Translations under genes and position numbers: made by a program
The notes under the pieces: generated by a model
The model's database searches: none
Told to the model about the DNA's origin: nothing
What the model saw: only the letters and a program-made list of their open reading frames with translations
Shown: positions 44,099 to 49,439 of the stretch, piece by piece
Numbering within the stretch: position 1 is the first letter of the stretch
How the letters are laid out: each line of letters starts with the position of its first letter
Assembly (NCBI GenBank): GCA_902538915.1
Contig: CACBGZ010000003.1
Location: 1 to 64,000 of the forward strand
From: an uncultured Pelagibacteraceae bacterium
Lineage (GTDB): Bacteria; Pseudomonadota; Alphaproteobacteria; Pelagibacterales; Pelagibacteraceae
DNA length: 64,000 bases
Direction: 5' to 3'

Positions 44099-44656
44099 AT
44101 GAAATTTTTAAGATTCTCTTTAATAATATTTATAACTTTAACCTCAACAGTTAAAGCAGATTTCAATAAAAAATTGATTGATCAACTTGATGATGGTGGA
44201 AAATTAATATTTATCAGACATGCATATGCACCTGGAAGTGGTGATCCAGATAATTTCAATCTAAACGATTGTTCAACTCAAAGAAATTTAAGTAACGAAG
44301 GTAAAAATCAAGCTAAAAATATTGGTGAATTTTTTAGAAAGAATAAAATCAAAATAGAAAAAGTAATCTCAAGTGAATGGTGTAGGTGCAAAGACACTTC
44401 TAGTTTAGCTTTTGGAAGTTTTGAGACCAAAAATTTCTTGAATTCATTTTATAGTTCAAAGTTTGTCAAAAACAAAAACTCGCAAATGTTAGATTTGAGA
44501 AAGTATATCAAAAACTTTAAAAGCAAAAAAAATTTAGTGTTAGTTACTCATTATGTTGTAATTTCTGAGGCTTTGAATTTTGCACCATCATCTGGAGAAA
44601 TTGTTATTTCGGATAAAAAATTTAATATAATAGGTAATGTTAAGACAAATTATTAA
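44099..44656 (+). CDS. Secreted histidine phosphatase-family protein
   Basis: Branch-1 histidine phosphatase of 185 residues. KFLRFSLIIFITLTSTVKA is a signal peptide (residues 2-20). LIFIRHAYAPGSGDPD carries the phosphorylated histidine of the RHG motif in the RHA form; RNLSNEGKNQA and ISSEWCRCKDTS complete the family, with LVTHYVVISEAL containing the second histidine. It is probably periplasmic or membrane attached. The ATG is two bases from the divergent uracil-DNA glycosylase start, so promoters must overlap coding regions. Confidence 0.85.
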   Translation: MKFLRFSLIIFITLTSTVKADFNKKLIDQLDDGGKLIFIRHAYAPGSGDPDNFNLNDCSTQRNLSNEGKNQAKNIGEFFRKNKIKIEKVISSEWCRCKDTSSLAFGSFETKNFLNSFYSSKFVKNKNSQMLDLRKYIKNFKSKKNLVLVTHYVVISEALNFAPSSGEIVISDKKFNIIGNVKTNY

Positions 44657-45644: not shown

Positions 45645-46337
45645 ATGGATACTTTATCAATTAATGATTTAAAAAATTTCGAGATCAACATTGATTTTTT
45701 TAGTCTCATTATTTCTATATTAACAAGCGCGATATGTGCTTATTTAATTAAATTTATTTATATAAAATTTGCTAAATCAATAAACAACAAGGAGAATTTC
45801 TCTGACACTTTTGTCTTACTAGCAATAACCACAACTGTTGTTATAACTGTTGTAAAGTTTTCTTTAGCTCTATCACTAGGACTTGTGGGAGCTTTATCTA
45901 TTGTAAGATTTAGGGCTGCCATCAAAGAACCTGAAGAGCTAATTTATCTTTTTTTAATTATCGGAGTTGGTTTAGCGTCAGGATCAGGTCAATATCATAT
46001 CAGTTTTATCTTAACCTCCGCAGCTTTTATTATAATTTTTTTTGATAATAAGTTTCGTAAAAATAGAATTTTTTCAAGCGCAGAAATATTGAATGTGGAA
46101 ATTAATTGTGAAGATTATGAAAAACTTAAAAAGGAATTAGAACAAATTACAAAGAATACCAAAATAGAATTAGACCTAAAATCTATAATAAAACAAAACT
46201 CAAAATTTGAGATTATCTACATAATTAAAAAACAAATTGACTCAGACACTGCAAATCTTGTTATTAAGAAATTAAATGATTTAGATTTTAAAGATTTTAT
46301 ATTTTCAATTTCTAAAGATATTCATGTACCACTCTAA
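45645..46337 (+). CDS. DUF4956-family membrane protein
   Basis: A 230-residue protein with four predicted helices in the first 145 residues, then a cytoplasmic tail. SLGLVGALSIVRFRAAIKEP is the DUF4956 signature, and IIGVGLASGSGQYHISFI follows. The tail (about residues 150-230) has a beta-alpha-beta look. Family members co-occur with VTC-domain polyphosphate polymerases and CotH-like proteins. It starts the three-gene operon and is three bases from the CotH gene. Confidence 0.88.
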   Translation: MDTLSINDLKNFEINIDFFSLIISILTSAICAYLIKFIYIKFAKSINNKENFSDTFVLLAITTTVVITVVKFSLALSLGLVGALSIVRFRAAIKEPEELIYLFLIIGVGLASGSGQYHISFILTSAAFIIIFFDNKFRKNRIFSSAEILNVEINCEDYEKLKKELEQITKNTKIELDLKSIIKQNSKFEIIYIIKKQIDSDTANLVIKKLNDLDFKDFIFSISKDIHVPL

Positions 46338-46340
46338 TAG

Positions 46341-48629
46341 ATGATCAAAATTTGGTTAAATATAATCAGAAATTTATTTTCAATTTTTGGTATATTAGTT
46401 TTTGTATCAATCATTTTATTTCTTTTTTTTGGTGAAACCTCTAAGCAAAGAAGAAATATTTTCTTTGAGACAGTCAAATCATTTGTTGGAATTGGTTTTA
46501 AATATGATGGATTTATCGCTAATACACCCTACAAGTATTTTGATTATATGTATTTGACTTTAACAAATAAATTTATCAATCATGATTTTAGTTCAATTAA
46601 TTTAGAGATAAATCTTAAAAATTTGAAATTATTGGAAAAGATGAGAGATGATAAATATAGAAATGTTAATAATAAAAGTGAATGGGCAAGAGCCCAACTT
46701 AGAATAGAGGATAAAAAAAACAATGTTAATAAAATAGTCAAAGTAAAATTAAGGCCCAAAGGAGATAGGGCAATTCATTTCCTAAATTTGGACTCAATGT
46801 CATATAAACTGGATGTAAGAGGTGAAGATAACTACATTTTTGGAATGGAGGAAATGTCATTACAAAAACCAATTGCAAGAAATTTTGCCTGGGAAATTCT
46901 TTATCATCAAATGTTGAGAGATGAGAGTATTTTATCTTTACAAATTACCCCAGTTAAATTTTATAGAAATGGAGAATATTTAGGAGTATTTGTTTTAGAA
47001 GAAGGTTTTGGAAAAGAACTACTAGAGAAACAAGCAAGAAAGAATGGTCCAATTGTTAGTATAGATGAAAATTTAGATCAATCTTTTCCAAATTTAACAT
47101 ACGAGTACTACTCTGAAAATTATTGGGTTAAAAAATCACCAGATATTATAAATTATTTTAAAAATAATTTAGAATTTATAAAAACTAATTTTAGAAATGA
47201 TGAATTTCAAATTGAGAATTATTTTGACATAGATAAATGGGCAAAATTCTTTGCACTCTCAGATGTTTTAAAAATGTTTCATGGCACTGTAACTAAATCA
47301 GTAAAGCTATACTACAATCCTAGCTCAGGTTTAATCGAACCGATTGCATTTGATGGACATTATCAGTCGGGTTATAACGATTTTTCTTTCATTGATTTTA
47401 TTGATAACCCAAAAATAGAATGTGGTTACGCTTGTACAAACAGAGTGTGGTACAGTTTATTTTTTGATAAAAAAAATATTAATTTTTTAAAAAAATATTT
47501 TTATCATATAAATAGATACACTTCTGATGATTACCAAAATAAATTAATTAATTATTCTGAAAATCAACTAAAAAAGATTAACAATTTTTTTTATAGTGAA
47601 TACCAAAGCTCTGATCGAGTTTTTTTTAATGGAATATTACCATATTATTATGATAATTCAGTCATAAAAAAAAGAAGTTCCATTTTAAAAAATAAAATAT
47701 TGAAAAAAAACTTAAACTCTTCTTTAGAACAGATTGAGTTTGCAAGGAACTTTTTTTATAAAAATATAAGAAACTTAGAAATTAGTGAAAATAGAAATAT
47801 TGAGGTTAAAAGCGGTTTATGGGTTTTGAAAGATGTCAGACTAATTGATCGAGATATAACTTTTAAAGATGACTCTATATTAATTCTTACCGGAAATAAT
47901 CAAATCATCGGCCAAAATAAAGAAGTTAATATTTCTGGTGATGGAATGTTGGTTCAATTAAATGGCAAAATTGATCTTGAAAATATAAAATTCAGGCAGT
48001 TAAAAAATATTAGATTAGATGGTTTAAATTGGTCTGGAGCACTCAATATAATTGACTCAATTACAAATATTAAAAACGTTTCTATAGAAAATACTCTAGG
48101 AGAGGACTCAATAAACTTGGTTGGTTGTAAATCTTATATAGAAGACCTAACTGTTTTAAATTCTGAAAGTGACTCAGTTGATATTGATTTTGGAAAAATT
48201 ACTTTTAATACAATTAATTGTAATGGTTCTGGCAATGATTGTTTTGATACTTCTGGATCCACTGTAAGTGGGAATATTTTATCAGGATCTAATGTTGTTG
48301 ATAAACTTGGTAGCTTTGGAGAAAATTCGAATGTATCAATTAAAAAAATAAATGGTAATGATGTTAATATTGGAATTGCTTCTAAGGATGGGAGCAGTGT
48401 TCAAATTAAAGAATTAAATTTGACAAATTACAACATACCATTAGCTAGTTATTATAAGAAATTTTTTTTTAAAGACTCCAAAATTGAAATTCAAAAAATT
48501 AATCTAAAAGAAGCGATTTCAAATAATTTTCTAGTTTCTGACGGCAATAAATTAGTTATTAACAAAAAAGAGCATAAAATTAAGTCGCCAAACAAAGTTA
48601 TAATTAATTCGATATACCCTAATACTTAA
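46341..48629 (+). CDS. Membrane-anchored CotH-kinase-like protein with C-terminal beta-helix
   Basis: A 762-residue protein with an N-terminal membrane helix (about residues 9-29), a CotH-like domain (about residues 80-450: VKLRPKGDRAIHFLNLDSMS, RNFAWEILYHQMLRDES, FYRNGEYLGVFVLEEGFG, KLYYNPSSGLIEPIAFDG) and a right-handed beta-helix-like region (about residues 490-720, many short NxxGxx turns such as GSGNDCFDTSG). CotH kinases phosphorylate proteins; here the usual acidic WDxD tail of the active site reads AFDGHYQSG, so activity is uncertain. It sits between DUF4956 and VTC genes with 2-3 base gaps. The outside-facing part would lie in the periplasm. Confidence 0.8.
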   Translation: MIKIWLNIIRNLFSIFGILVFVSIILFLFFGETSKQRRNIFFETVKSFVGIGFKYDGFIANTPYKYFDYMYLTLTNKFINHDFSSINLEINLKNLKLLEKMRDDKYRNVNNKSEWARAQLRIEDKKNNVNKIVKVKLRPKGDRAIHFLNLDSMSYKLDVRGEDNYIFGMEEMSLQKPIARNFAWEILYHQMLRDESILSLQITPVKFYRNGEYLGVFVLEEGFGKELLEKQARKNGPIVSIDENLDQSFPNLTYEYYSENYWVKKSPDIINYFKNNLEFIKTNFRNDEFQIENYFDIDKWAKFFALSDVLKMFHGTVTKSVKLYYNPSSGLIEPIAFDGHYQSGYNDFSFIDFIDNPKIECGYACTNRVWYSLFFDKKNINFLKKYFYHINRYTSDDYQNKLINYSENQLKKINNFFYSEYQSSDRVFFNGILPYYYDNSVIKKRSSILKNKILKKNLNSSLEQIEFARNFFYKNIRNLEISENRNIEVKSGLWVLKDVRLIDRDITFKDDSILILTGNNQIIGQNKEVNISGDGMLVQLNGKIDLENIKFRQLKNIRLDGLNWSGALNIIDSITNIKNVSIENTLGEDSINLVGCKSYIEDLTVLNSESDSVDIDFGKITFNTINCNGSGNDCFDTSGSTVSGNILSGSNVVDKLGSFGENSNVSIKKINGNDVNIGIASKDGSSVQIKELNLTNYNIPLASYYKKFFFKDSKIEIQKINLKEAISNNFLVSDGNKLVINKKEHKIKSPNKVIINSIYPNT

Positions 48630-48631
48630 AA

Positions 48632-49303
48632 ATGTTTGAATTAATAAAAAAAATTGAAAAAAAACACAGAATTATTAAACCCAGATTAGAAAGAAAGGTA
48701 AAAATTAGTAAACACAGCCAAGTTTTTTATAAAAATTTTTTGAAAAGATGTTCGTTTTATAAGCAATTTTCAGACCAAATAGTGGAATCTATTTACTTTG
48801 ATGATCATAATTTGAGTTTTGCAAAATCTAACATTGACGGAGAATTTTACAGAATCAAACCTAGAATCAGATGGTATAATGATGATTTATCAAAAATTAA
48901 ATATGAGTTTAAAATTAAAAAAGGATTTAACGGATATAAAATCATTTCAAATGATATTTATGACTTTGAAAATGATAAAAAAATTATATTAAAAAAAACT
49001 AGATCTTTTCTTAAAGAAATTTTTGACATGAGTCTAAAAGAGGCAATCACAATCAGATATAACCGGTCTTATTTAAAGCATCCATCTGGAATAAGACTAA
49101 CTTTAGATAAAAACTTAACCTACAGTCTTCCAGGATCAAGTATTAAAAAGTCTTTAGATTTTGAAGTATTAGAGTTTAAATATGATGTGGATAAAGACTA
49201 TTACTTTAGAAAAGTTTTATTTAATAATTTTTTAAATTTACCATTAAAGCTCACCAAGTGCTCAAAATACGTTGAGGCTATCACAAGTGAATACTCTTAT
49301 TAA
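48632..49303 (+). CDS. VTC-domain protein, putative polyphosphate polymerase
   Basis: A 223-residue protein of the VTC / triphosphate-tunnel superfamily. Conserved lysines and arginines line the tunnel: RKVKISKHS, VESIYFDDHNLSF, RIKPRIRWYN, KYEFKIKKGF, IRYNRSYLKH, RLTLDKNL and the closing KCSKYVEAI. Yeast Vtc4 uses this domain to make polyphosphate from ATP; bacterial solo VTC proteins are usually annotated as putative polymerases. Downstream comes tRNA-Leu. It is the last gene of the operon. Confidence 0.85.
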   Translation: MFELIKKIEKKHRIIKPRLERKVKISKHSQVFYKNFLKRCSFYKQFSDQIVESIYFDDHNLSFAKSNIDGEFYRIKPRIRWYNDDLSKIKYEFKIKKGFNGYKIISNDIYDFENDKKIILKKTRSFLKEIFDMSLKEAITIRYNRSYLKHPSGIRLTLDKNLTYSLPGSSIKKSLDFEVLEFKYDVDKDYYFRKVLFNNFLNLPLKLTKCSKYVEAITSEYSY

Positions 49304-49354: not shown

Positions 49355-49439
49355 GGGGCGATGGCGGAATTGGTAGACGCGCTGGTCTTAGGAACCAGTC
49401 GAGCAATCGGTGAAGGTTCGAGTCCTTTTCGCCCTACCA
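49355..49439 (+). tRNA. tRNA-Leu, anticodon UAG
   Basis: Long-variable-arm tRNA of 85 bases with a 7-bp acceptor stem (one G-U pair) and an encoded CCA end. The anticodon loop CTTAGGA reads UAG, for CUA/CUN leucine codons. The T loop GTTCGAGTC and the D-region GGCGGAATTGGTAGACGC are typical. It lies 51 bases after the VTC gene and 14 bases ahead of tig. Confidence 0.95.

Follow-up and report, generated by a model that had tools for sequence, protein, structure and literature searches.

A conserved gene trio of DUF4956, CotH-fold/beta-helix fusion and VTC proteins in SAR11 and other phyla, with a possible role in polyphosphate use outside the cytosol

The window analysed here, 64,000 nucleotides of contig CACBGZ010000003.1 from an uncultured Pelagibacteraceae (SAR11) bacterium (GenBank assembly GCA_902538915.1), carries three closely packed genes on the plus strand, which we refer to as the trio. 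The first gene (45645..46337) encodes a DUF4956 membrane protein of 230 amino acids, the second (46341..48629) an N-terminally anchored fusion of a CotH fold with a right-handed beta-helix, and the third (48632..49303) a soluble VTC-type triphosphate tunnel metalloenzyme (TTM) of 223 amino acids. Only 3 bases separate the DUF4956 stop (46337) from the ATG of the fusion gene (46341), and 2 bases lie between the fusion stop (48629) and the VTC ATG (48632). A tRNA-Leu (TAG) gene identified with ARAGORN (49355..49439, plus strand) begins 52 bases past the end of the trio and borders it; by its flanks in relatives it is a host gene outside the module. On re-reading, the coordinates, strand, gaps and tRNA neighbour given in a preliminary description of this DNA are all correct.

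The three genes form one conserved unit that recurs across many phyla. In a sample of 299 Pseudomonadota genomes, a VTC gene over the cut-off is found in 7, DUF4956 in 8 and both in 7 (hypergeometric P 2e-13), and every such VTC gene (9/9) has DUF4956 within 4 kb; the families are linked, and the possibility that they are usually unlinked does not hold. Of 61 Pelagibacterales genomes, 8 have VTC, 7 the fusion and 7 DUF4956; where a member is missing, it is cut off by a contig end or placed on another contig. When 84,980 species genomes were scanned with a DUF4956 alignment, at least 526 relatives were recovered, and 80 loci were kept, a set biased to this subfamily by the SAR11-derived query. 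Where at least 5 kb is available downstream of DUF4956 (52 loci), VTC lies within 6 kb in 48, CotH in 45 and both in 43. The exact order of DUF4956, CotH-beta-helix fusion and VTC is seen in 44 loci, with median gaps of 5.5 and 0 bases; this count includes SAR11, and a few of the loci are duplicate views of one genome. The exact-order loci come from SAR11, Saprospiraceae, Flavobacteriaceae, Planctomycetota, Omnitrophota, Delongbacteria and one Nanohalarchaeota bin. This linkage and constant order back the earlier proposal that the genes make up one functional membrane unit. Viral contigs give two pattern matches and no relative, and plasmids give no match for the fusion. The contig labelled Nanohalarchaeota, with its trio-like cluster (L115:309-3743), may be a mis-binned bacterial contig.

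The VTC protein matches PF09359 at 51.8 bits (gathering cut-off 23; E 1e-13), and its family profile matches yeast Vtc4 (3g3q; E 9.7e-14). In that alignment R78, R80, K96, R145, R155, E181 and K212 fall on the basic tunnel, metal-binding Glu and catalytic Lys of Vtc4. The tunnel Lys/Arg motifs had been described as intact, and indeed the Lys, Arg and Glu positions are all present: R18-x-E20-x-K22, R78, R80, K94, K103, R145, R155, E181-x-K183 and K212 are kept in 60/60 VTC proteins, and K96 in 57/60. Published work distinguishes two types of TTM enzyme by a patch that is acidic in tripolyphosphatases and basic in the polymerase Vtc4 (PMC4641920). In all 60 proteins two of the three metal-2 glutamate positions are basic as in Vtc4 (R18 and K183), the third is Glu (E20), and the position of the catalytic Lys458 is kept as K212. 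Judged by its residues, the tunnel is polymerase-like at most positions that separate polymerases from tripolyphosphatases, and the VTC protein is probably a polyphosphate (polyP) polymerase. The link to polyP chemistry that had been drawn from the VTC gene is borne out by this family evidence together with the linkage. No transmembrane (TM) segment is found in any of the 60 VTC proteins, the window's included, and the 223 residues comprise the TTM domain only, with neither an SPX domain nor TM helices of their own.

The DUF4956 protein matches PF16316 at 66.2 bits (gathering cut-off 30.6; E 3.9e-18). Its predicted structure (predicted local distance difference test, pLDDT, 87) has five membrane-region helices spanning residues 18-142, followed by an ACT-like alpha/beta domain, and replaces the four-helix protein of the preliminary description. 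The motif SLALSLGLVGALS..RFR..IK.PEEL of the TM bundle is invariant in 77 sequences and present in the window protein. The DUF4956 profile has no match among PDB sequences; structure matches to the C-terminal domain include the C-terminal domains of MgtC (2lqj, Foldseek rank 1, and 7qa5), and the model suggests that this ACT-like domain is cytosolic and resembles that of MgtC. MgtC likewise joins an N-terminal TM bundle to a C-terminal ACT-like domain, but the match of DUF4956 to PF02308 is marginal (E 0.04, 14.7 bits, under the cut-off of 31.4), and DUF4956 has another conserved motif and another operon.

The fusion protein alone has no Pfam, NCBIfam or PDB match in single-sequence searches, does not match PF08757 (CotH) at E up to 10, and a SAR11-only fusion profile finds no match among PDB sequences. 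An AlphaFold model built with an alignment of 57 relatives (pLDDT 88; predicted template modelling score 0.88) assigns its two folds. Residues 81-459 superpose on the Bacillus cereus CotH kinase 5jda (Z 28.1, 327 residues aligned), and residues 473-743 match right-handed beta-helices, for example AlgG (Z 24.6). The CotH assignment is further supported by orthologous fusions that match PF08757 (E 1.8e-21, 3.9e-12 and 7.7e-7) as well as PF13229. The beta-helix shares its fold with the polysaccharide enzymes AlgG, AlgE4 and GH87 (Z 22-25), at only about 7-17% identity. One N-terminal TM segment (residues 12-30) anchors the window protein and 57/58 fusions have one, so that the CotH/beta-helix part is predicted to face the periplasm.

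The active-site-like segment of the CotH-fold domain runs from FHG (His314) to IAFDG (D338), at 47280..47357 on the plus strand. The Asp of the N-x-D motif of canonical CotH, which we take to be the catalytic residue, is replaced by His314 in 56/58 fusions, the window's included; a literature search for papers naming the CotH active-site residue gave none. Nearby columns are kept (Y324 and N326 in 56/58, P334 in 58/58), as is the Asp of the canonical YD.D motif (D338 in 50/58), and the Lys of the canonical KKS motif, which reads KWS in fusions, is lost in SAR11 copies. The canonical proteins used for this comparison come from the same kind of operon, and residues were mapped by MAFFT, the hhalign alignment of fusion and canonical CotH being weak and partial (probability 15%, 94 columns). 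About 20 residues of the pocket region are near-invariant across phyla and many are basic, among them R138, K140, H146, R180 and H314. These residue patterns seem to fit neither an ordinary ATP kinase nor a plainly inactive enzyme. Compared with B. cereus CotH (5jd9/5jda), with which it shares a fold over about 327 residues, the fusion adds a membrane anchor and a beta-helix, has His for the presumed catalytic Asp and, in SAR11 copies, lacks the ATP-type Lys. Ordinary ATP-dependent kinase activity is doubtful because of the His in 56/58 fusions and the missing KKS Lys in SAR11. Of the membrane-anchored CotH-like kinase with a beta-helix that had been proposed, the anchor, the folds and the fusion stand; 'kinase' is a fold assignment only, since the hallmark active-site residues are changed, and these same changes undercut the idea that CotH suggests phosphorylation.

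One face of the beta-helix bears a ladder of Asp or Asn followed by Lys (48102..48461, plus strand; columns conserved in at least 49/58 fusions) in register with the 22-residue coil period: D589, D611/D614/D616, D633/D636, D654/K655, K682/D683 and K706/K707. AlgG, AlgE4 and GH87 differ from the fusion in this respect, the ladder being its own, and the pattern suggests a ligand groove. In a Saprospiraceae bin (L110:10660-20184) a single DUF4956 is followed by three CotH-beta-helix fusions, the first separated from the second by VTC, an arrangement that suggests substrate diversification. Another genome (G101) holds two versions of the unit, one ordered LTD-CotH, VTC, DUF4956, HlyD (L160) and the other DUF4956, fusion, VTC (L161).

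Several loci add genes to the trio. Signal-peptide-like pyrophosphatases with an intact GDGD..D motif lie inside or beside it in L012, L081, L089 and L091, and in L142 a pyrophosphatase that is a probable lipoprotein follows VTC. In the closed SAR11 genome G012, a secreted PF00719 pyrophosphatase lies inside the trio (L164 / L012:9015-9635, minus strand), and no other PF00719 protein turned up in the 61 Pelagibacterales genomes. Three Saprospiraceae loci (L114, L128 and L140) have, placed between DUF4956 and the fusion, a secreted CYTH protein that bears the tripolyphosphatase motifs ExExK and ExE. Such accompanying enzymes suggest that phosphoanhydrides occur outside the cell. A bare DUF4956-VTC pair without CotH is found in the alphaproteobacterial loci L156-L158; a PiT phosphate transporter follows it in L156 and L158 (PF01384, E 4e-105 and 5e-100), and L158 encodes a phytase-like protein as well. 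Some Bacteroidota operons encode, in addition, another CotH, of canonical type, together with an O-antigen ligase (Wzy_C), glycosyltransferases and an MBOAT enzyme.

Neither this genome (79% complete) nor its trio-bearing closed relative G012 has a match to the polyphosphate kinases PPK1 and PPK2. PPK1 is found in 18/61 Pelagibacterales relatives and in 0/8 with the trio, and the sister genome G029, in which the trio site is empty, has PPK1. This distribution is suggestive of the trio replacing PPK1, though without significance within the genus (P 0.15).

The trio in the window is an insertion. In G029, the closest relative found (trigger factor 96% identical), 89 bases separate the DUF1289 gene from tRNA-Leu, against 3.7 kb in the window, and the trio is missing from this position in eleven further relatives. 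Elsewhere in SAR11 the trio lies between ilvC and leuA, after mnmA, beside tRNA-Thr and beside an rRNA operon, the flanking gene names being read from protein sequences. A DUF4956 tree places the window sequence in a single clade of 25 SAR11 sequences (100/100), and pairs the copy of the SAR11 genome G028 with Uabimicrobium (100/99). SAR11 has likely acquired the trio at least twice, because the G028 DUF4956 falls outside the main SAR11 clade. This second version (L010:9000-11719) has the order DUF4956-VTC-CotH and a CotH with Asp, not His; with a DUF4956 closest to Candidatus Uabimicrobium, it is probably an independent acquisition. GC content does not set the window insertion apart. There is no sign of a simple attachment-site duplication at the tRNA: neither end of tRNA-Leu has a second copy in the window, and it is the 5' side of the tRNA that faces the trio. 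In G028, a phage-type integrase (PF00589), a Sigma70_r4 protein and short unknown genes lie just upstream of the same tRNA-Leu(TAG) (L075:2073-6639), so this locus takes integrated elements in a relative too. Slightly upstream of the trio, the window also encodes a signal-peptide-like protein of the histidine phosphatase family (44099-44656), which is a host gene since it is conserved in relatives without the trio.

The system is not wholly undescribed, as had first been suggested, since its three families are already known together. CotH, 'poly-phosphate polymerase' and DUF4956 were reported in 2020 as accessory genes of Gram-positive Pel loci (PMC7112168), and Streptococcus intermedius mutants of the three families were phenotyped in 2025 (PMC12345266); mutants of the DUF4956 and CotH genes alter Pel levels and aggregation (PMC7112168, PMC12345266). 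The Pel accessory genes (CotH, poly-phosphate polymerase, DUF4956 and DUF4832; SIR_1592-1594) resemble the trio in clustering the same families, with a DUF4956 made of TM segments and an ACT domain, an extracytoplasmic CotH and a VTC-type polymerase. They differ in lying within pelDEADAFG, with which the trio is not contiguous, and in a CotH domain (plus FN3 in SIR_1594) that has no reported beta-helix, whereas the trio CotH is fused to one and has His in place of the presumed catalytic Asp.

The authors of the 2025 study state that synteny was not found outside Pel (PMC12345266), and the free-standing loci described here contradict that statement. PelG is absent from the 61 Pelagibacterales relatives, Pel-like neighbours are found neither at the window site nor at the SAR11 sites read, and in several SAR11 genomes the trio stands by itself, flanked by housekeeping genes. 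Three features are new: a free-standing form that lacks Pel, the fusion to a beta-helix, and the accessories, namely secreted pyrophosphatases, secreted CYTH proteins and PiT beside the minimal pair. A search of a literature collection lacking most subscription journals and preprints found no paper describing the free-standing trio. The gene set has been known, though not explained, and the free-standing trio is possibly its commoner form; what had been seen only as a Pel add-on appears to be an independent, widespread machine.

From the architecture, linkage, residue patterns and accessory genes described above we infer a function in polyP synthesis and translocation through DUF4956, plus some extracytoplasmic use of polyP, a reading whose chances we place a little short of even. 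VTC would polymerise polyP from ATP in the cytosol, as yeast Vtc4 does, and the chain would cross the inner membrane by way of DUF4956, acting as conduit or docking site, a role likened to that of the TM region of Vtc1/Vtc3/Vtc4. In yeast, cytosolic polyP synthesis is coupled to translocation via a TM channel (PMC9911596). The trio shares the tunnel residues of the TTM polymerase with yeast VTC and, by analogy, the pairing of a polymerase with multi-TM partners that synthesise and translocate polyP; it differs in a polymerase without SPX and TM, in a TM partner that is the MgtC-like DUF4956 and not Vtc1, and in an added envelope enzyme. The periplasmic CotH-fold domain, with no ATP supply outside, would take the exported polyP as phosphoryl donor and modify a surface polymer held along the beta-helix, and the pyrophosphate and triphosphate leftovers would be removed by the secreted pyrophosphatase or CYTH protein of some operons. 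This synthesis and export reading draws on the constant linkage and order, the basic R18/K183 together with K212, the absence of a PPK match, the PiT neighbours, the secreted pyrophosphatase and CYTH genes, the TM pattern (57/58 fusions, 0/60 VTC proteins) and the basic CotH pocket. Translocation of polyP through DUF4956, argued by analogy, stands at an even chance, and consumption of polyP outside by the CotH/beta-helix protein is a tentative proposal. The broadest form, a widespread prokaryotic system in which cytosolic polyP is exported to power an extracytoplasmic, ATP-independent CotH-fold phosphotransferase with a His active site, is more speculative and on the unlikely side.

Several observations weigh against synthesis and export. 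No structural match was obtained for the TM region of DUF4956, the second structural comparison having covered the ACT domain only, so its role as a conduit is an analogy. The exclusion of PPK1 by the trio is not significant within the genus (0/8 against 7/29, P 0.15), and neither known substrate genes nor glycan genes adjoin the window copy. Deletion of the S. intermedius VTC homologue SIR_1593 has no aggregation phenotype, unlike the other two (PMC12345266). The third metal-2 position of the tunnel, E20, is a phosphatase-like Glu in 60/60 where Vtc4 has Thr, and in this the tunnel departs from a pure Vtc4 type. This Glu occupies the Glu-4 position of TTM phosphatases, and activities of TTM proteins are diverse (PMC4641920); VTC could then be a triphosphatase or other TTM enzyme, with the trio handling a nucleotide or lipid-linked triphosphate. 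We regard this as improbable, since the other two metal-2 glutamates are Arg and Lys throughout, the catalytic Lys position is retained as K212 and the profile match is to Vtc4. It is still less probable that the phosphorylation first suggested is the work of an ordinary protein kinase, with the CotH domain using ATP to modify an envelope protein: the fold (Z 28) and the PF08757 matches of related fusions are in keeping with it, but the His in 56/58 fusions, the absence of the KKS Lys from SAR11 copies and a predicted periplasmic location, where no ATP is supplied, are not.

Two further alternatives concern the purpose of the unit, and we consider both unlikely, to about the same degree. The trio could be a phosphate storage or sensing unit in which polyP stays in or at the envelope, a dead CotH-fold sensor gates VTC through DUF4956 and the beta-helix binds an outside ligand. 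The PiT linkage, the altered Asp and Lys of the CotH domain and the ACT-like domain of DUF4956, a fold common in ligand sensing, would fit such a unit, but near-invariance of some 20 pocket residues including His314 over phyla is unusual for a dead domain, and the secreted pyrophosphatase and CYTH genes imply short phosphoanhydrides outside. Alternatively, the trio could act on a surface glycan, tuning how much is made or how it is attached, like its counterparts in Gram-positive Pel loci, polyP being secondary. The shifts in Pel levels and aggregation in DUF4956 and CotH mutants of these families (PMC7112168, PMC12345266), the Wzy_C, glycosyltransferase and MBOAT genes of Bacteroidota versions and the resemblance of the beta-helix to alginate epimerases speak for this role; the lack of PelG in 61 relatives and the solitary position of the trio between housekeeping genes in several SAR11 genomes speak against it.

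A long-standing question is by what means bacteria carry out phosphorylation or supply energy to reactions outside the cytosol, which holds the ATP. A conserved operon in which a VTC-type polymerase and a membrane protein are combined with a kinase-fold enzyme outside the cytoplasm and, in some cases, with secreted pyrophosphate or triphosphate hydrolases makes a polyP-powered answer directly testable. If the synthesis and export reading is true, bacteria would gain a VTC-like polymerase-translocase, and SAR11, among the most abundant marine bacteria, would have a way to make polyP in genomes that gave no PPK match.

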